Below, one piece after another: positions 43,011 to 51,008 of a DNA stretch of 64,000 bases. Both the position numbers and the translations under genes were made by a program. Position 1 is the first letter of the stretch, and every line of letters begins with the position of its first letter. This stretch comes from Pseudarthrobacter phenanthrenivorans. GTDB lineage: Bacteria > Actinomycetota > Actinomycetes > Actinomycetales > Micrococcaceae. The stretch covers positions 1 to 64,000 of the forward strand of contig NZ_JWTB01000007.1 in NCBI RefSeq assembly GCF_000813845.1. The letters run 5' to 3'. The notes beneath the pieces are model-generated. The model saw only the letters and a program-made list of their open reading frames with translations. It searched no databases and was not told the origin of the DNA.

Positions 43011-44063
43011 CTAGGGAACGGAGCTTCCGCGCACCACCAGTTCCGCCGGATAAATAACCGGTTCCGGTGCTTCTCCGGGCTCCCCGATGGCTTCCACCAG
43101 AAGCTTTCCGGCTGCGGCCGCGATATCCGCCATGGGATGGGCCACTGTGGTGAGCCCCAGGCCATGCGCCGCCTGGATGGAGTGGTTGTCGAAGCCCACC
43201 ACTGCGACGTCCTCCGGCACCCGCCGCCCCCTTCCGCGAAGAGTGTCCACCACGCCGAGCGCCATGAGGTCGGACGCAGCGAATATTCCGTCCACATCAG
43301 GCGACATGGCCAGCAATTGGGCCGCAGCATCGGCGCCGCCCGCCGTCGTAAAGTCCCCGTGGATGACGGGTCCGGGCTGGATGCCCGCTTCCCGTAGTCC
43401 CTGCAGCCAGCCGTCCAGGCGGTCGACGGCGGCCGTCATGTCAGTGGGGCCGGCAACAGTTGCCAACTTACGGCGGCCGGCGCCGGACAGGTGCCGCGCC
43501 GCCAGCCGGCCGCCCTCGACGTTGTCCAGGTCCACATAGGGAATCCCCGCGTCCGTGTCCCACGGCCTGCCGATGAAGACGGTGGGCAGCCCGGTGGCGC
43601 CCAGGGTCTCCACCCAGTCGTCGGCGCGGTGGTGGGACACCACGATCGCGCCGTCGACGTGTCCTCCACGCAGGTAGCGGAGGGTCCGCGCGGAGTCATC
43701 CCCGGCCCGGGACATGAGCAGCACCAACTGCAGGTCCGTCTCGCGGAGGGCTTCATTGACTCCCATGATCACCGCGGCAAAGTACGGGTCCATCATGACC
43801 CTGGCGTCGGGTTCGGGGATGACCAGCGCCACGGATCCCGCCCGCCGAGTGACCAGGCTCCGCGCAGCACGGTTGGGGGTGTATCCCAGCGCCACAATCG
43901 CGGCGTCAACGGCCGCCTGGGCCTGTGCGCTCACCTTGGAGCCGCCGTTGATCGCACGGGATGCGGTGGAGCGGGACACCCCGGCGGCCGACGCCAGGTC
44001 CTCCAGCGTAGGACTGGGCCGCCCTGCCCCTGCCGGGGCCGGGCGGCTGGAGTTTGCGTTCAT
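43011..44063 (-). CDS. cebR: LacI-family regulator, CebR-like
   Basis: 350 aa. The LacI helix-turn-helix (about 18-60) contains TLEDLASAAGVSRSTASRAING, and a periplasmic-binding-protein fold follows. The locus holds three copies of TGGGAGCGCTCCCA-type sites, the sequence bound by CebR of Streptomyces, the cellobiose/cellooligosaccharide repressor. The gene follows bglC, its ATG overlapping the stop by one base (TAATG), unlike the separate position of cebR in Streptomyces. Hence the repressor is made with the genes it controls. Confidence 0.85.
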   Translation of the reverse strand: MNANSSRPAPAGAGRPSPTLEDLASAAGVSRSTASRAINGGSKVSAQAQAAVDAAIVALGYTPNRAARSLVTRRAGSVALVIPEPDARVMMDPYFAAVIMGVNEALRETDLQLVLLMSRAGDDSARTLRYLRGGHVDGAIVVSHHRADDWVETLGATGLPTVFIGRPWDTDAGIPYVDLDNVEGGRLAARHLSGAGRRKLATVAGPTDMTAAVDRLDGWLQGLREAGIQPGPVIHGDFTTAGGADAAAQLLAMSPDVDGIFAASDLMALGVVDTLRGRGRRVPEDVAVVGFDNHSIQAAHGLGLTTVAHPMADIAAAAGKLLVEAIGEPGEAPEPVIYPAELVVRGSSVP

Positions 44064-45547
44064 TACACCGACAATACGACACCCCGGGCCGGCGGCGGGA
44101 CGGGGTTGCTGCCCGCGGGAAGGGCGTTGCCGGATGCCACCGACGAGTACCACAGGGCGCTCGCTTTCGGAATCCGTTCCTGGGTGGGATAGTCCACCCG
44201 GACCAGGCCGAAGCGCTGGTGGTAGCCAAAGGACCACTCGAAGTTGTCCAGCAGTGACCACGCGAGGTATCCGCGGACGTCCACGCCGTCCGCAATGGCT
44301 CCGTGCACGGCGTCGAGATGGGCGGCGAAGAAGCCCAGCCGGTCCTGGTCGTCCACGAAACCCATGGCGTCGGGCACGTCCTCATAGGCTGCGCCGTTCT
44401 CGGTGACGTAGATCGGAATGCCGGCCGGTCCCGTGTACTCGGTTTGGAGTCGGTTGAGCAGGCGCCGGAGCCCTTCGGGCTGCACCTCCCAGCCCATTCC
44501 CGTGACAGGAAGGCCCCGGCGGACAGAGCGGGTGCCGTCGGCAGCCACGAACGGCGATGCCACCGCTCGGGTTGCCTGCCCCGGGACCGACGTCGTTTCC
44601 GGAGCTGCTTGCTCCTGGACGCCGGCCGGGTCCTTTGTGAGTGATTCACCGTGGTAGTAGTTGACGCCGAGCAGGTCCAGGGGTGTGGAAATCGACTCAA
44701 GGTCGCCGGCGTGCACCAGGTCCGCCATTCCCAGGTGCGCTACGTCTGCCAGGACGTCGGCCGGGTATTCGCCGCGGAACAGCGGGTCAAGGAAGATCCT
44801 GTTGAACTGCCCGTCAATCCGCCTCGCTGCATCCCGGTCGCTTTCGCTGCCGGGATCCCTCGGGTCGGCGACCGTCAGGTTCAGGGTGATGCCCAGGGAG
44901 GCCTCCGGGTCCCGGCGGCGGAGCTCCGCCGCTGCCAGGCCGTGGCCGAGCAGGAGGTGGTGCGCCGCAGCCAGGGCGGCCCGGGGTTCCTGCCGGCCCG
45001 GAGCGTGGATTCCTGCCGCGTAGCCCAGGAACGCCGAGCACCACGGTTCGTTGAGGGTGGTCCAGATGCGGACCCTGTCCCCCAGCACGCTATGCATATG
45101 GGCCGCGTACTCAGCGAAACGGTAGGCGGTGTCACGGTTGGCCCATCCGCCGTTGTCTTCCAGGGCCTGGGGCAGGTCCCAGTGGTAGAGGGTCAGCCAC
45201 GGGGTGATGCCGGCAGCCAGCAGCTCATCCACCAACCGGGAGTAGAAGGCGATTCCCTCGGGATTGGGCGTAACGCCGTCAGGCATGCAGCGGGCCCAGG
45301 ACGTGGAGAACCGGTAGGCCTTCATGTTCAGCCGGCCCATGAGCGACACGTCCTGCCGGTAGCGCCGGTAGTGATCGCAGGCCATGTCCCCGTTGTGGCC
45401 GTCCGCCACGGCACCGGGCAGCCGCGCGAACACATCCCAGATGGAGTCCCTCCGGCCATCGGCGTGTGCTGCGCCCTCGATTTGGTAGGCAGCTGTTGCC
45501 GTCCCCCAGAGGAAATCCTCCGGAAACGGACGTTGGGTGGAACTCAT
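44063..45547 (-). CDS. bglC: Beta-glucosidase, GH1 (BglC-like)
   Basis: 494 aa cytoplasmic GH1 enzyme. The acid-base Glu is in TLNEP (about 172) and the nucleophile in VTENG (about 383). It has the substrate-binding elements FLWGTATAAYQIEG and WSLLDNFEWSFGY. It probably cleaves imported cellobiose and short cellooligosaccharides to glucose. Its start overlaps the permease stop by ATGA and its stop overlaps the cebR start. The C-terminal 30 residues are variable. Confidence 0.92.
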   Translation of the reverse strand: MSSTQRPFPEDFLWGTATAAYQIEGAAHADGRRDSIWDVFARLPGAVADGHNGDMACDHYRRYRQDVSLMGRLNMKAYRFSTSWARCMPDGVTPNPEGIAFYSRLVDELLAAGITPWLTLYHWDLPQALEDNGGWANRDTAYRFAEYAAHMHSVLGDRVRIWTTLNEPWCSAFLGYAAGIHAPGRQEPRAALAAAHHLLLGHGLAAAELRRRDPEASLGITLNLTVADPRDPGSESDRDAARRIDGQFNRIFLDPLFRGEYPADVLADVAHLGMADLVHAGDLESISTPLDLLGVNYYHGESLTKDPAGVQEQAAPETTSVPGQATRAVASPFVAADGTRSVRRGLPVTGMGWEVQPEGLRRLLNRLQTEYTGPAGIPIYVTENGAAYEDVPDAMGFVDDQDRLGFFAAHLDAVHGAIADGVDVRGYLAWSLLDNFEWSFGYHQRFGLVRVDYPTQERIPKASALWYSSVASGNALPAGSNPVPPPARGVVLSV

Positions 45548-46455
45548 CCTTTGACTGCTCCTTGCATGATTCCGGATACGAGTTGACGGCCTGCCGCAAT
45601 GAACAGCAGCAGGAGCGGGACGGTGGCCAGGACGGCGCCGGCCAGGACCACGGAGTAGTCCACGAAGTGGGCGGCCTGCAGCAGCTGCAGGGCCACCGGG
45701 AGGGTGGGGTTGGAGGGGTCAAGGACAATGAACGGCCAGAAGAAGTTTGTCCAGGTGGCCGCGAAAGTGAACAGTGCCAGCATGGCGGCGGCAGGGCGGG
45801 CTGCCGGGAAACCGATGTGCCAGAACGTCTGGATCATCGATGCGCCGTCCATCCGGGCGGCCTCGATAAGCTCGTCCGGCAGGGCGTCCCGAAGGTACTG
45901 CGTCATCCAGAACACCCCGAACGCGGTGACGAGGCCGGGGATGATGACCGCCCACAGTGAGCCCGTCCACCCCAGTTTGGACATCACGATGAACAACGGG
46001 ACCACGCCCAGCTGGGTGGGGACCGCCATGGTGGCGATAACGAACACCAGCAGGGCCTTGCTGCCGCGGAAGCGGAGCTTGGCAAAGGCGAACCCCGCCA
46101 GGGTGGAAAATACGACGACGGATGCGGCCGTCACGCCGGAGACGATCAGGCTGTTGCCCATCGCCTTCCAGAACGGGATGCTGTCGAAGACCTTGGCCGC
46201 ATTGGCCAGGAAGTTCCCGCCGGGAAGGAGCGGGATGCCCCGGCTGAGGACGGTGTTGTCATGGCTGCCCACCAGGAACGACCAGTACAGCGGAAAGATC
46301 GAAGCGAGCAGCACGGCACCGAGGAAGCCATAAGTGGCGAACCCCGGCCGGCGGGCGGCGCCGAAGCCTGTCCGGTGGTTCCCGCCGCCGCGCCGGGCTG
46401 CTGCCCTGGCCGCACCTTTTCCGGCAGTCTGTTCGATCACGGGAATGGAGCTCAC
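45544..46455 (-). CDS. cebG: Cellobiose ABC transporter permease, MalG type
   Basis: 303 aa. Six predicted membrane segments, and the EAA loop LPDELIEAARMDGASMIQTFWHIGFP. A 25-residue basic N-terminal tail precedes TM1. The GTG start overlaps the previous permease stop by GTGA. It pairs with cebF; no ATPase gene is present, as in Streptomyces where MsiK serves several sugar transporters. Confidence 0.88.
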   Translation of the reverse strand: MSSIPVIEQTAGKGAARAAARRGGGNHRTGFGAARRPGFATYGFLGAVLLASIFPLYWSFLVGSHDNTVLSRGIPLLPGGNFLANAAKVFDSIPFWKAMGNSLIVSGVTAASVVVFSTLAGFAFAKLRFRGSKALLVFVIATMAVPTQLGVVPLFIVMSKLGWTGSLWAVIIPGLVTAFGVFWMTQYLRDALPDELIEAARMDGASMIQTFWHIGFPAARPAAAMLALFTFAATWTNFFWPFIVLDPSNPTLPVALQLLQAAHFVDYSVVLAGAVLATVPLLLLFIAAGRQLVSGIMQGAVKG

Positions 46456-47441
46456 TTGCGGCCTTCCTGGCTGGCGATGCGTTTGGTGATGACGAAATTA
46501 AGCAGGGCAATCAGGACGATGATCAGGAAGAGCAGCCACGCCACCGCGGAGGCCCTGCCGAAGTTGCGCTGGCCCCAGCCGAGTTCCCAGATGTACATGG
46601 TCAGTGTTTGCCACTGGCGGTCCGCCCCGCCCAGGCCGGACTGGTCAAAGACCCGGGGCTCATCGAAAATCTGGAGGCCGCCGATGGTTGAGGTGATCAC
46701 CACGAAAATGATGGTTGGGCGAAGCATGGGTACTGTCACGGAGAAGAACTGCCGCAGCCTGCCGGCGCCGTCGATCGTGGCCGCTTCGAACACGTCACGC
46801 GGAATCGCCTGCATGGCAGCAAGGAAGATCAGGGCGTTGTAGCCCGTCCAGCGGAAGTTCACCATGGTGGCTATGGCGGCATGGCTTGCCACCGGATCGG
46901 AGTGCCACCGGACCGGGTCAAGCGCAAGCGCCTTCAACATCTCGTTGATCAGCCCGAACTGGTCGGCAAAGAGATTGTTGAAGATCAGCCCCACTGCCAC
47001 GGGTGCCACGACGAACGGCACCAGCACCCCCATCCGCCAGAACGTCCTTGCCCGCAGGTTCGCGTCCAGCACCGCTGCGACCACCAGGGCCACGACTACC
47101 TGGGGAACGGAGGAGAGGATGAAGATGCTGAAGGTGTTGCCCACAGCGTTCCAGAAGTACGGCTGGGCCACCACGAAGGCGTAGTTTTCCAGTCCCGCGA
47201 ACTTTCCCTGCCCGCCGATGAGGTTCCAGTTGTGCAGTGAAACCCAGGCCGTGTAGGCCAGCGGGAAGAGGCCCGTGACGGCGAACAGCAGGAAGAAGGG
47301 CGAAACGTAGAGGTACGGTGACAGCTTGAAGTCCCATTTGGAAACCTGCTGGGATAACGCGAGGCGCCGGACGTTTCCGCCGTCACGCCCCGTGCTGGGG
47401 CTGGGACCTGCGTGGCGCGTGACCCGGTCGGTGACTGCCAT
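46452..47441 (-). CDS. cebF: Cellobiose ABC transporter permease, MalF type
   Basis: 329 aa. Six membrane segments, with the EAA loop VFEAATIDGAGRLRQFFSVTVPML. The N-terminal 45 residues are polar. I start at the ATG at 47441, two bases after the binding-protein stop; the ribosome site is weak, which suggests coupling to the upstream gene. The upstream in-frame ATG lies inside cebE and is rejected. Confidence 0.88.
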   Translation of the reverse strand: MAVTDRVTRHAGPSPSTGRDGGNVRRLALSQQVSKWDFKLSPYLYVSPFFLLFAVTGLFPLAYTAWVSLHNWNLIGGQGKFAGLENYAFVVAQPYFWNAVGNTFSIFILSSVPQVVVALVVAAVLDANLRARTFWRMGVLVPFVVAPVAVGLIFNNLFADQFGLINEMLKALALDPVRWHSDPVASHAAIATMVNFRWTGYNALIFLAAMQAIPRDVFEAATIDGAGRLRQFFSVTVPMLRPTIIFVVITSTIGGLQIFDEPRVFDQSGLGGADRQWQTLTMYIWELGWGQRNFGRASAVAWLLFLIIVLIALLNFVITKRIASQEGRK

Positions 47442-47443
47442 GC

Positions 47444-48736
47444 CTAGAGGGACTTCACTGCGGTGACGAACTTGTCCCAAGAGGACGCGGCGTCGTCCGA
47501 CTTGTCAACGTCCACCCGGGTGAGGGCCTGCTGCATGGCGTCATTGATGGCGAAGTACTTGGTTCCCTTGAAGGGCGTGACATCAACGGCCTTGGCCCGC
47601 TCGGCGAAGATTTCGCCGGTCGGGGCGCCGTTGAAGAACTTGCTCGTCTGGCCCAGCAGCTCACTGCTTTCCAGTGCCTCTTTCTGGCTGGGGAAGGTGC
47701 CCTTAGCGGTGAACGCCTTGATCTGCTGCTCAGGAGCAGTCAACCAACCGGCCAGTTTCTTGGCTTCTGCCTGGTGCGCTCCCTGCGTGGGAACGGTCAG
47801 GTAGGACCCGCCCCAGTTTCCGCCACCTCCCGGGAAGACGTTGGCCACATCCCAGCCGGTGACCCCGGCCGCGTTGCCCTCGATCACTCCGAGCATCCAG
47901 CCCGGGCAGAGCGTGGTGGCGAAGGCGCCGGTCTGGAAACCGGAGGCCCAGTCATCGCTCCACTGCTTGAGGTGGGCGGACAAGCCGTCCTCGGTGGAGG
48001 CCTTCAGGACCTGCTTGTAGGTGTCCTTGACCTGCTGGTTCTCCGTGGCGATGACGGAACCGTCTTTCTCCTCATAGACCTTTTCAAGCTGGTTGCTCAT
48101 GCCTTGGTAGATGGCCCCGGCGGAGTCGAACCAGGCGGAACCGGGGTTTGCGGCTTTGAATTTCTTTCCGGCGTCGAAGTAGCTGTCCCAGGAGGTACCC
48201 AGCATTTTGGCAACCTCGCCACGTTCGGTGGGCAGGCCGGCCTTCTTGAGGAGTTCGGAGTTGTAGCAGACGGCCTCGGGGCCGGAGTCTGTCCCGTAGC
48301 CAAGCAGCTTGCCGTCCGCGGTGGTGGCGGCCTGGGCCTTCCAGTCCAGCCAGCGCCCTTCCACTGCGGGGTCGGCCAGGTCCGCGAAGCGGTCCGGGTA
48401 CTGCAGGAGTTCGGGAAGCCAGTCCACTTCCACGGCCTCGATATCGGACAGGCCCGAGCCTGCGGCGAGGCGCGTCGTGAGGTTGTCACGCGCCTCATTG
48501 GTGGTCGCGGCTTTCTTGTGCTGGATGGTCACGTTGGGGTTCTGTGCTTCGTATTCCTTGAAGAGCTCTTCGTAGCCGAACTCGTTGAACGTGCCGACGG
48601 TGAGCGTCACAGCCTCGGATCCGGTGGCACCGTTCACGCCGGACTTCTCGGGCGCGGAGGAACCGCAGGCCGTGAGCGACAGGGCAAGGCACGCGGCGGC
48701 GGCCGAAAGCACGGAGAACTTGCTGGGGTTTTTCAC
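47444..48736 (-). CDS. cebE: Cellooligosaccharide-binding lipoprotein
   Basis: 430 aa binding protein with a signal peptide ending in the lipobox LTAC (C24). It is the first gene of the operon cebE-cebF-cebG-bglC-cebR and carries CebR-type operators upstream. SGAIYQGMSNQLEKVYEE and the aromatic-rich C-terminal half fit the CebE branch of carbohydrate-binding proteins. Ligand assignment rests on the operators and the GH1 partner. Confidence 0.88.
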   Translation of the reverse strand: MKNPSKFSVLSAAAACLALSLTACGSSAPEKSGVNGATGSEAVTLTVGTFNEFGYEELFKEYEAQNPNVTIQHKKAATTNEARDNLTTRLAAGSGLSDIEAVEVDWLPELLQYPDRFADLADPAVEGRWLDWKAQAATTADGKLLGYGTDSGPEAVCYNSELLKKAGLPTERGEVAKMLGTSWDSYFDAGKKFKAANPGSAWFDSAGAIYQGMSNQLEKVYEEKDGSVIATENQQVKDTYKQVLKASTEDGLSAHLKQWSDDWASGFQTGAFATTLCPGWMLGVIEGNAAGVTGWDVANVFPGGGGNWGGSYLTVPTQGAHQAEAKKLAGWLTAPEQQIKAFTAKGTFPSQKEALESSELLGQTSKFFNGAPTGEIFAERAKAVDVTPFKGTKYFAINDAMQQALTRVDVDKSDDAASSWDKFVTAVKSL

Positions 48737-48835: not shown

Positions 48836-48849
48836 TGGGAGCGCTCTCA
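48836..48849. promoter_or_regulatory. CebR-type operator 1
   Basis: TGGGAGCGCTCTCA, one mismatch from the 14-bp CebR box. It lies downstream of the leftward promoter, about 100 bases ahead of cebE. Its centre is 55 bases from operator 2. Confidence 0.8.
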
Positions 48850-48877
48850 CCAAATGGTGTCCCACCTCACAACTTCT

Positions 48878-48883
48878 TGTCAA
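48878..48883 (-). promoter_or_regulatory. -35 element of the cebE promoter
   Basis: A consensus TTGACA on the minus strand, placed between operators 1 and 2. A -10 about 17-18 bases on (ACACCA/CACCAT) is weak. Operators on both sides suggest looping or road-block repression. Confidence 0.5.
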
Positions 48884-48890
48884 GAAAATT

Positions 48891-48904
48891 TAGGAGCGCT
48901 CCCA
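48891..48904. promoter_or_regulatory. CebR-type operator 2
   Basis: TAGGAGCGCTCCCA, one mismatch from the box, just upstream of the cebE -35. Its centre is 55-56 bases from operators 1 and 3. Confidence 0.8.
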
Positions 48905-48910
48905 CTACCC

Positions 48911-48939
48911 TTGCCGGCCCCCGGGTGCGGTGTTACGCT
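48911..48939 (+). promoter_or_regulatory. Rightward promoter of the secreted beta-helix gene
   Basis: TTGCCG (48911-48916) and TACGCT (48934-48939) are separated by 17 bases. Operator 3 at 48947-48960 covers the expected transcription start, so CebR should repress this gene. Confidence 0.6.
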
Positions 48940-48946
48940 TCCCCGA

Positions 48947-48960
48947 CGGGAGCGCTCCCA
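48947..48960. promoter_or_regulatory. CebR-type operator 3
   Basis: CGGGAGCGCTCCCA, one mismatch from the box, directly downstream of the rightward -10 element and 66 bases ahead of the beta-helix gene. Confidence 0.8.
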
Positions 48961-49025: not shown

Positions 49026-50951
49026 ATGCCGCTATCCTTACGCCCTGATGCACCCAGACCCCTTCCGCCGCAGCGCCGGCACCACCCTGGCATCGTTGCC
49101 GCAAGCACCGCCCTCCTCATCGGGCTTGCCGCCGCCGGCGGGACCATTCCGGCGCAGGCGGCGCCGCCGGCCGTGAAACCCGGAGTCCAGGCTCCGGCGT
49201 CGCCACAGCAGCCGACACAGACCTCGCAAAGCCCGTTCGGGTCCAATACGTACGTCTTCGATCCCGGCATGCCGGTGGCGCAAATCCAGGCCACAGTGGA
49301 CGCCATTGCGGCCCAGCAGGTGGACGACGAGATGGGCTCAAAGCGCTACTCCCTGCTGTTCAAGCCCGGGACGTACGGCACCCCCGAGGAGCCGCTGATC
49401 GTCCAGGTGGGCTACTCCACCGAGGTGGCGGGCCTGGGCGCTGCACCCACTGATGTCACCATCAACGGACACGTGGACGTCTACAACCGGTGCCTCACCG
49501 CGGACAACTGCATCGCCCTGAACAACTTCTGGCGGTCCCTGTCCAACCTCACCATCAACGTCACGGGACTTGAGGGCTGCCGCAGCTCGGCAAACTTCTG
49601 GGCAGCCTCCCAGGCTTCGCCGATGCGCCGGGTCAACATCACCGGCGGCAACCTTTCCCTGATGGACTACTGCACCGCCGGCCCGCAGTACGCCAGCGGC
49701 GGCTTCATCGCGGATTCCAAGACGGGCGCCGTCATCAACGGCTCCCAGCAGCAGTACCTGGTGCGCAACAGCAGCATTGGAAGCTGGTCCAACGGAGTCT
49801 GGAACCAGGTGTTCTCGGGCGTCAACGGGGCACCTGCAGATTCCTTCCCGGACCCGCCGTACACCACCCTGGACACGACTCCCATCAGCCGCGAGAAGCC
49901 CTACCTGACGGTGGACCCCGCCGGGCAGTACAGCGTGTTCGTGCCCTCCGTGCGCCAGGACTCAGCGGGGACCACGTGGGAAAACGGCCCTACGGAAGGC
50001 CGCAGCATCCCGCTGGCCGACTTCTACGTCGCATCGCCCGGTGATTCAGTGCAGACCATCAACACGCAACTGGCCCGTGGAAAAAACCTGCTCCTTACCC
50101 CCGGGGTCTACGACGTTGACCGCAGCATCGAGGTCAAGAGGGCCGGAACCGTAGTACTCGGTCTGGGCATGGCAACACTTACCGCCGTCAACGGATCAGT
50201 GCCCCTGACAGTCGCGGATGTCCCCGGCGTGGACATTGCTGCCGTTACCGTGGATGCCGGTGAGGTCAACTCACCCGCCCTGATGCGCATCGGCAAAGCC
50301 ATCCCGGGCGAAGGGGGCGGACCCGCCAACTCTGCCGTCCACAGCGATCCGGCCAACCCCACCACGCTTCACGATGTGTTCTTCCGCATCGGCGGCCCCC
50401 ACGTGGGCAAAGCCTCGGTCAGCCTGGAAGTCAACAGCGACAACGTGCTCCTGGACCACATCTGGGCCTGGCGCGCGGACCACGGCAAGGGCGTTGGCTG
50501 GACCAGCAACACTGGCAGGAACGGCGTCATCATCAACGGTGACAACGTCACTGCCACCGGCCTGTTCGTGGAGCACTACCAGGAGTACAACGTCATCTGG
50601 AACGGTGAAAACGGCAGGACCGTGTTCTTCCAGAATGAACTGCCTTACGACGCTCCGAACCAGGCAGCCTGGCAGCACGACGGGGTCCTGGGCTGGGCGG
50701 GATACAAGGTGGCAGATACCGTCAAAACCCACGAACTCTGGGGCGGCGGCAGCTATGTGTACAACAACGTGGACCCAACCATCCACGCCACCCGCGGCTT
50801 TGAAGTCCCCGTGACCCCCGGGGTGAAGCTGCACAGCCTGCTGACAGTGAACCTGGGTGCCGGCACGCTGGACCACGTGGTCAATGACACCGGCGCGCCC
50901 GTCTCCACGGCCGCCGTCGGAGTTCCGAGCTACGTGGCCAATTTCGGCTAG
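49026..50951 (+). CDS. Secreted right-handed beta-helix protein, GH55-like
   Basis: 641 aa with a Sec signal peptide (hydrophobic core about 23-40, cleavage after AQA at 45). The mature chain shows two beta-helix halves (about 70-330 and 340-600) with repeating N/T/V-rich turns, as in pectin-lyase and GH55-like folds. Relatives in Streptomyces have been labelled adenylyl cyclase, with nothing in the sequence to support it. A CebR-type operator in front of it and its divergence from cebE suggest it degrades or binds a beta-glucan outside the cell, feeding the Ceb transporter. No catalytic residues can be assigned with confidence. Confidence 0.75.
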   Translation: MPLSLRPDAPRPLPPQRRHHPGIVAASTALLIGLAAAGGTIPAQAAPPAVKPGVQAPASPQQPTQTSQSPFGSNTYVFDPGMPVAQIQATVDAIAAQQVDDEMGSKRYSLLFKPGTYGTPEEPLIVQVGYSTEVAGLGAAPTDVTINGHVDVYNRCLTADNCIALNNFWRSLSNLTINVTGLEGCRSSANFWAASQASPMRRVNITGGNLSLMDYCTAGPQYASGGFIADSKTGAVINGSQQQYLVRNSSIGSWSNGVWNQVFSGVNGAPADSFPDPPYTTLDTTPISREKPYLTVDPAGQYSVFVPSVRQDSAGTTWENGPTEGRSIPLADFYVASPGDSVQTINTQLARGKNLLLTPGVYDVDRSIEVKRAGTVVLGLGMATLTAVNGSVPLTVADVPGVDIAAVTVDAGEVNSPALMRIGKAIPGEGGGPANSAVHSDPANPTTLHDVFFRIGGPHVGKASVSLEVNSDNVLLDHIWAWRADHGKGVGWTSNTGRNGVIINGDNVTATGLFVEHYQEYNVIWNGENGRTVFFQNELPYDAPNQAAWQHDGVLGWAGYKVADTVKTHELWGGGSYVYNNVDPTIHATRGFEVPVTPGVKLHSLLTVNLGAGTLDHVVNDTGAPVSTAAVGVPSYVANFG

Positions 50952-50971: not shown

Positions 50972-51008
50972 GGGCGCGGTGCCGGCAATGGATGCCGGCA
51001 CCGCGCCC
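50972..51008. terminator. Bidirectional intrinsic terminator
   Basis: A perfect 16-bp stem (arms 50972-50987 and 50993-51008) with a 5-base loop, followed by ACTTTTCGTTTT on the plus strand. It lies between the convergent beta-helix and nickel-transporter genes. Confidence 0.9.

Follow-up and report, generated by a model that had tools for sequence, protein, structure and literature searches.

A CelR/CebR-type repressor and its boxes accompany a secreted GH55 protein in Pseudarthrobacter phenanthrenivorans: a probable one-locus beta-1,3-glucan regulon

In this study, we have explored one gene, its upstream palindromic boxes and the operon that diverges from it, in a stretch of 64,000 nucleotides of Pseudarthrobacter phenanthrenivorans (contig NZ_JWTB01000007.1, positions 1 to 64,000; here called the window). 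The explanation that best accounts for our data, and that we consider probable, is that the gene encodes a secreted, most likely exo-acting beta-1,3-glucanase of family GH55, placed under a LacI-family repressor of the CelR/CebR type in a regulon of a single locus. The whole looks like a small unit for feeding on beta-1,3-glucan and not like a part of the cellulose programme. The features on which this rests are the following:

49026 to 50951, forward strand: gene of the GH55 beta-1,3-glucanase (named by homology), secreted, 641 amino acids (open reading frame list, phmmer, model and alignment; signal peptide by eye), consisting of a signal peptide at about residues 1-45, a low-confidence stretch to residue 67 and two beta-helix domains at 69-641.
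48947 to 48960: operator O3, CGGGAGCGCTCCCA, covering the position at which GH55 transcription is expected to start (palindrome search, genome count, aligned spacers).
48911 to 48939, forward strand: GH55 promoter, -35 TTGCCG at 48911-48916, 17 nt, -10 TACGCT at 48934-48939 (aligned spacers).
48891 to 48904: operator O2, TAGGAGCGCTCCCA, lying between the promoter of GH55 and that of the divergent operon (palindrome search, aligned spacers).
48854 to 48883, reverse strand: promoter of the divergent operon, -35 TTGACA at 48883-48878, 18 nt, tentative weak -10 CACCAT at 48859-48854 (aligned spacers).
48836 to 48849: operator O1, TGGGAGCGCTCTCA, in the start region of the divergent operon (palindrome search, aligned spacers).
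50972 to 51008, forward strand: terminator-like hairpin of 16 pairs after the GH55 gene, which suggests a single-gene transcript, although one found against a shuffle mean of 1.5 is not significant by count.

By its sequence and its predicted model, the protein is a GH55 family member. A phmmer search matched its residues 68-640 to SacteLam55A (4pew), the GH55 exo-beta-1,3-glucanase SACTE_4363 of Streptomyces sp. SirexAA-E, with an E value of 2e-169, and the two are 53% identical over 542 aligned positions. The model, built from 41 sequences (pLDDT 84, pTM 0.85; below 50 at residues 1-67 and 426-437), shows the two beta-helix domains with a cleft between them that mark a GH55 member. It superposes on the laminaritriose complex of SacteLam55A (4pey) with a Z of 56.8 and 1.6 Å over 541 residues; among the matches listed, the fungal GH55 entries 3eqn, 8jhh and 5m5z come at Z 26-27 and the next row at Z 18. 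Read by eye, the N-terminus is signal-peptide-like (RR, a hydrophobic stretch and AQA/A at 45/46), and the start position, with a AGGACCAGCA-like leader, is largely kept across the 16 aligned spacers described below. GH55 enzymes hydrolyse beta-1,3-glucan with inversion, and the window protein would most likely be exported to trim such a glucan, for example laminarin, callose or that of fungal walls.

For the active site, we compared the window protein with the best 80 of 380 relatives from a scan of genome contigs (81 sequences), mapping onto them the residue roles and SacteLam55A numbers given in PMC10637969. In that account Glu502 is the general acid of SacteLam55A and Tyr505 its helper, and T149, S198, Q174 and E480 form a proposed water-activating relay, with Glu in place of the Thr in MnLam55A (PMC10637969). 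The catalytic acid E538 (E502 in SacteLam55A) and the helper Y541 (Tyr505) are kept in all 81 sequences, and so are the relay residues Q196, S224 and E516 (Q174, S198 and E480) and the block of subsite -1 and aromatic residues F168, W480, W482, D485 and H517 (F152, W444, W446, D449 and H481). The likeness to SacteLam55A therefore covers the fold, the overall identity, the acid, the helper Tyr, three relay residues, subsite -1 and the aromatic block. In a 41-sequence alignment, cysteines 156, 162, 185 and 216 are invariant. Cys156 replaces W143 of SacteLam55A and Cys162 follows six residues on, both in the loop before the position of the relay Thr149; a pair given as Phe143/Trp144 is said to block subsite -2 in SacteLam55A (PMC10637969), where our numbering gives Trp143/Phe144. 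These cysteines, together with the changes at Thr149, Y194 and W196 weighed below, set the window protein apart from SacteLam55A; it thus belongs to a sister subfamily in which the catalytic residues are kept as far as sequence tells. The sequence-only reading of this DNA had seen here a secreted beta-helix protein and had suggested a beta-glucan-active function, to be checked by fold prediction against GH55. The signal-peptide-like start and the two-domain model bear out the first part; the second holds as far as homology goes, from the phmmer match, the residues and the fit of the model to 4pey.

The control of the gene was approached through the palindrome TGGGAGCGCTCCCA, from which O1, O2 and O3 each differ by one mismatch. 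No other site in the 4.33 Mb genome comes within one mismatch of that palindrome. Ten more sites have exactly two mismatches, and we do not count them as operators because a reversed control pattern gives 18 sites at two or fewer; at up to three mismatches, the whole window holds 4 palindrome sites against 8 expected, which is no excess. We aligned the window spacer with those of 15 relatives that have retained the importer operon. The GH55 -10 is kept in these 16 spacers (TACGCT, with TAGGCT in two), as is a -35 of TTGCCG/C (TTGTCC in one), and O3 begins 7 nt after this conserved -10, so that it covers the expected transcription start. The TTGACA of the divergent promoter is also conserved, with O1 at the expected start there. 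A consensus promoter scan gave no report of the GH55 promoter that is read from the alignment. The distance from O1 to O3 is 110-113 bp in 16 of 16 spacers; O2 was seen in nine, the window included (some with two mismatches), and of the seven spacers that lack O2, five have one more box next to O1, towards the importer.

Beyond the spacers, a box differing at no more than one position stands near the GH55 start in all 18 close relatives (a group of our choosing, GH55 identity at least 79%) and in 8 of the 62 relatives that are more distant. With 200 shuffled palindromes the means were 0.01 and 0.005 loci, respectively, none reaching the real counts. At up to two mismatches, the figures were 18 close and 12 distant loci, the latter being reached by one of the 200 shuffled palindromes. 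A chance origin of the operators is rejected by the genome count, the conservation footprint and the shuffles.

Reading away from the GH55 gene, the divergent operon is made up of five genes:

47444 to 48736, reverse strand: sugar-binding protein of an ATP-binding cassette (ABC) importer, CebE/KfSBP-like, family-1/8 type, the single match in the genome (profile and structure-sequence search).
46452 to 47480, reverse strand: first ABC permease, BPD_transp_1 (profile search).
45544 to 46455, reverse strand: second ABC permease, BPD_transp_1 (profile search).
44063 to 45547, reverse strand: GH1 beta-glucosidase, above the TIGR03356 cut-off (Pfam, NCBIfam).
43011 to 44063, reverse strand: LacI-family repressor of 350 amino acids, its start overlapping the GH1 stop in TAATG (Pfam, NCBIfam, comparison).

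The repressor is 43.7% identical over 334 positions to that of NZ_MK753227.1, a synthetic plasmid, which is of the CelR kind and itself 92% identical to the "MalR-CelR" of MK753228.1, a protein that we take to be the CelR of T. fusca. Two traits of a CebR/CelR system are found at the locus: TGGGAGCGCTCCCA-type operators at the promoter, and a CelR-like LacI encoded in the operon. For the GH1 gene, passing the equivalog cut-off names a beta-glucosidase and does not tell the linkage. The closest solved structures to the binding protein are KfSBP of Kribbella flavida (5IXP, 434 bits) and CebE of S. scabiei (8BFY, 231 bits). Using the table of 24 residues that contact cellotriose in CebE (PMC10714786), we found 13 to be identical in the window protein, 7/11 around the non-reducing glucose and 6/13 around the other two sugars.

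Across the genus, the box goes with the GH55 gene. We sampled 150 genomes, among which the search threshold gave GH55 in 35 and 33 were counted: one with an 81-residue fragment (G059) and one at E 1e-3 (G094) were scored as negative, and one with its GH55 in pieces (G056) as positive. Palindrome matches on both strands were merged into one box place. An exact box occurs in 39 of the 150 genomes, 32 of the 33 with GH55 and 7 of the 117 others, and of the 65 distinct places with an exact box, 56 are found no more than 400 bp upstream of the GH55 gene. In the seven box-only genomes, neither GH55 nor the LacI, binding protein, permease or GH1 was found at E 1e-5 in the stretch fetched around the box (15 kb in six, 4.6 kb in G121). 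These and the leftover places look like chance, since the reversed control pattern itself matches in 12 of the 150 genomes. GH55 looks like the constant target of the regulator. At G056:C1:2770504-2772415, the GH55 matches fall in five pieces with three exact boxes upstream; at an assembly completeness of 79% and a contamination of 6%, sequencing errors are as likely as gene decay.

Loci that lack the importer also bear on this constancy. Leaving G056 aside, we examined 32 GH55 loci of the genus, the window and 31 that were fetched. The binding protein, two permeases, GH1 and LacI are all carried by 25, and two (G066, G044) have GH55 but lack all five genes, the box still being present at G066. 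The remaining five (G038, G115, G014, G111, G107) keep LacI, GH55 and one or two boxes without the other four genes. In these five genomes the binding protein was not found anywhere, while it was found in three of three importer-bearing controls, and a separate search agreed for three of the five; for the permeases and GH1, the absence refers to the locus. Among the close relatives, the importer genes are missing at the locus of L003, L005 and L016, where the same GH55 promoter has two boxes around it in the first two and one in the third. On a quick protein tree of LacI (30 rows including the window, 10 open forks), the importer-less five are scattered, and the presence of the importer changes five times, at least three of which are forced by starred branches. 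The plainest reading, resting on this LacI tree, is a repeated loss of importer and beta-glucosidase in which repressor and enzyme stayed, which makes GH55 the constant partner of the repressor; the sequence at the junctions is also compatible with an importer that was ancestrally absent.

In the window, the sequence GTCGTATTGTC stands at 44070-44080, just before the LacI start, and in strains with the importer it forms the last part of GH1. It is found exactly in three of the five importer-less strains (L108, L112, L116) and as variants in L114 and L135. It may be a private LacI promoter giving a nearly leaderless transcript, and, since it was perhaps retained as the repressor's own promoter, it does not prove a deletion scar.

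Based on our results, we infer that the LacI of the window is the protein that binds the boxes, that the locus forms a one-locus beta-1,3-glucan regulon, and that laminaribiose or gentiobiose is a likelier effector than cellobiose. A possible sequence of events would be that the LacI whose gene closes the divergent operon sits on O3 and shuts the GH55 promoter with the help of O2 and O1, and on O1/O2 shuts the divergent operon. A gluco-disaccharide freed from glucan would enter the cell, and the repressor would let go. GH55 would then be secreted and would release glucose, plus gentiobiose at beta-1,6 branches, from laminarin, callose or fungal wall glucan; the ABC importer would take up short gluco-oligosaccharides and GH1 would split them. 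In the genome, GH9 was not found in a search with working controls, and GH16 gave three matches, which together lean to a beta-1,3-glucan diet without proving it.

In the wider set of relatives, the picture is one of lineages. In six Cryobacterium genomes there are 8 exact box places together, with one near a GH55 start in every genome. Three Saccharothrix genomes and one Umezawaea genome have 33-71 strand matches each, most places being counted on both strands, and these sets are a large regulon; their GH55 box has at most one mismatch in L057 and L062 and two in L071 and L075. In Flavimobilis, the box at GH55 differs at two positions, and the genome's single exact box is elsewhere. The A. 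agilis-type loci have a different LacI (25-28% identical) downstream of GH55 on the opposite strand, possibly a second solution for controlling the same enzyme, and A. agilis UMCV2 has a boxed importer operon about 2 kb from GH55. At the four plasmid-filed GH55 loci, those of Embleya, Streptomyces SAT1, SGAir0924 and Deinococcus taeanensis (three Streptomycetaceae, one Deinococcus), no box with at most one mismatch was found, and all four have a LacI gene at a distance of 0.24 to about 12 kb from GH55. The box at GH55 is therefore a trait of lineages and not of the family.

Three of the relatives deserve a separate word. On the plasmid of Streptomyces sp. SGAir0924 (L142, 14440-30055), two discoidin-labelled genes, the first being the GH55 match, are clustered with DUF1996, GH3, ROK, an ABC importer, GH1 and LacI, which looks like a larger beta-glucan unit without a CebR box at one mismatch or fewer. 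The Deinococcus taeanensis plasmid (L141) carries a GH55 relative of 65% identity near LacI, discoidin-domain and TnpB-family genes, which suggests transfer between phyla. Finally, a 10 kb contig filed as Vibrio cholerae strain 35D (L042, WNZI01000074.1) bears an A. agilis-like GH55 locus with LacI and 66% GH55 identity, and is probably contaminating actinobacterial DNA in that assembly.

Several of our observations weigh against a beta-1,3-glucanase under its own regulon, some on the side of the enzyme and others on that of its control. For the enzyme, the relay Thr149 of SacteLam55A is Leu in 81 of 81 sequences, L165 in the window protein, and of its plus-subsite aromatics Y194 is Pro in 80 of 81 and W196 is Tyr or Phe in all 81, so that mode and products may differ from those of SacteLam55A. 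The Leu and the four cysteines shared by the subfamily, of which two stand in the preceding loop, would suit a GH55-fold protein that binds glucan without cleaving it, or that cleaves a beta-1,2 or beta-1,6 linkage. We regard this as improbable, given that no variation was seen at the other catalytic and subsite -1 positions checked and that the model lies so close to 4pey; an exo mode is, by analogy with SacteLam55A, still the most likely one. Some database records would make the protein an adenylyl cyclase, a product name carried by two Deinococcus relatives (65% identity) and one Streptomyces relative (51%; records H16, H18 and H29). The product names on the remaining relatives are "glycoside hydrolase family 55 protein", "discoidin domain-containing protein" and "coagulation factor 5/8 type". 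As the window protein gave only sub-threshold matches in Pfam and none in NCBIfam, this may be why relatives are poorly named. Searches of the protein at E values up to 1 in Pfam and up to 0.1 in NCBIfam gave no cyclase family. It has a signal peptide, its whole mature chain aligns to GH55, and other relatives of its kind carry the GH55 name. We therefore reject the cyclase identity, to which we give practically no credence, and the sequence-only reading was right that the label exists in the family and does not fit.

For the control, the main rival is an ordinary cellobiose regulon, in which a true CebR/CelR would answer cellobiose, the importer would carry cellobiose or cellotriose, and GH55 would be a side enzyme opening callose or hemicellulose during plant-wall decay. 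The box hardly differs from the published CebR/CelR consensus (PMC4898821, PMC3377646), the gene set matches the putative cellobiose operons of PMC3377646, and the likeness of the LacI to a CelR-type repressor together with the canonical box fits a cellobiose effector equally well. The many boxes of Saccharothrix and Umezawaea, with one at GH55 in two genomes, point the same way, and a possible CelR control that extends no further than importer, beta-glucosidase and LacI in Jonesia denitrificans is still called a cellobiose system (PMC3377646). The comparison with the CebE contacts is too even to settle the ligand of the binding protein. GH6 and GH48 had no match in the genome, in searches with no positive control, and GH5 and GH12 were not searched, which leaves room for cellulases. 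The association of box and GH55 in the genus has a Fisher p of 1e-24, uncorrected for kinship among same-genus genomes that are not independent; 54 of the 62 more distant GH55 loci lack a box at one mismatch or fewer, and the A. agilis-type loci (L034, L036, L038, L040, L043, L044, L052) have none at the gene. Nevertheless, we hold the cellobiose regulon to be possible but doubtful. The genome has no box at several unlinked cellulase genes, as every close match lies in this one spacer, and GH9 was not found. Repressor and box stay with GH55 where the importer is gone, and the binding protein is closer to KfSBP than to CebE, with 11 of the 24 cellotriose contacts changed. The sequence-only reading had placed a CebR-type operator over the expected transcription start of the gene and the gene divergent from cebE, and both stand, in O3 and in the cebE-like binding-protein gene. 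Its wording that the gene was drawn into the cellobiose regulon is not supported: the close boxes are confined to the spacer, across the genus the box follows GH55, and the pair of repressor and GH55 outlasts the presumed cellobiose-binding protein. That wording would better suit Saccharothrix and Umezawaea because of their large box sets, two of them with a GH55 box at one mismatch or fewer.

There are clear parallels between the proposed GH55 regulon and known systems. CelR/CebR boxes and operons with binding protein, permeases, GH1 and LacI have already been described in actinobacteria such as T. fusca and SirexAA-E (PMC3377646, PMC4898821), and the window shares with them both the TGGGAGCGCTCCCA palindrome and this gene set. 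The key distinction is that 6-30 genes are predicted to be CebR-controlled in a Streptomyces strain (PMC4898821) against one locus here, where GH55 is the constant target and the importer is dispensable. A CelR-like palindrome precedes two Catenulispora GH16 putative endo-1,3-beta-glucanases, and a CelR site is given at a Nocardiopsis endo-beta-1,3-glucanase (PMC3377646); these resemble our case in having such a palindrome before a putative beta-1,3-glucanase gene and differ in that there it precedes other genes too. The main text of PMC3377646 does not mention GH55, and in the open-licence literature we found no report of a GH55 gene under a CelR/CebR box. SACTE_4363 itself has been reported in glucose culture fluid, with xylan and xylan derivatives not acting as specific inducers (PMC12772271). 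The proposed laminaribiose-type logic has a precedent in another phylum, GlyR3 of Clostridium thermocellum, an autoregulated LacI-family repressor beside beta-glucanase genes that is released by laminaribiose (PMC5483248); it differs from our locus in operator, phylum and enzymes (celC-glyR3-licA).

In conclusion, our results offer a warning that not every TGGGAGCGCTCCCA box is a cellulose signal: here, box, repressor and beta-1,3-glucanase appear as a self-contained unit. More tentatively, and with some doubt, we propose that the classic cellobiose operator was kept while the signal of a CelR/CebR-type repressor changed to a beta-1,3 (or beta-1,6) disaccharide, the regulon shrank to one enzyme, this control outlasted repeated loss of the importer, and the GH55 subfamily has a relay with neither the Thr of SacteLam55A nor the Glu of MnLam55A. 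The strains without the importer that keep repressor and enzyme, such as Arthrobacter sp. Soil764, 135MFCol5.1 and YD4, represent a clean natural test of the repressor's signal, and the Leu in place of Thr is a natural substitution with which the proposed GH55 proton relay can be tested. A function is now also suggested for proteins filed as "adenylyl cyclase".

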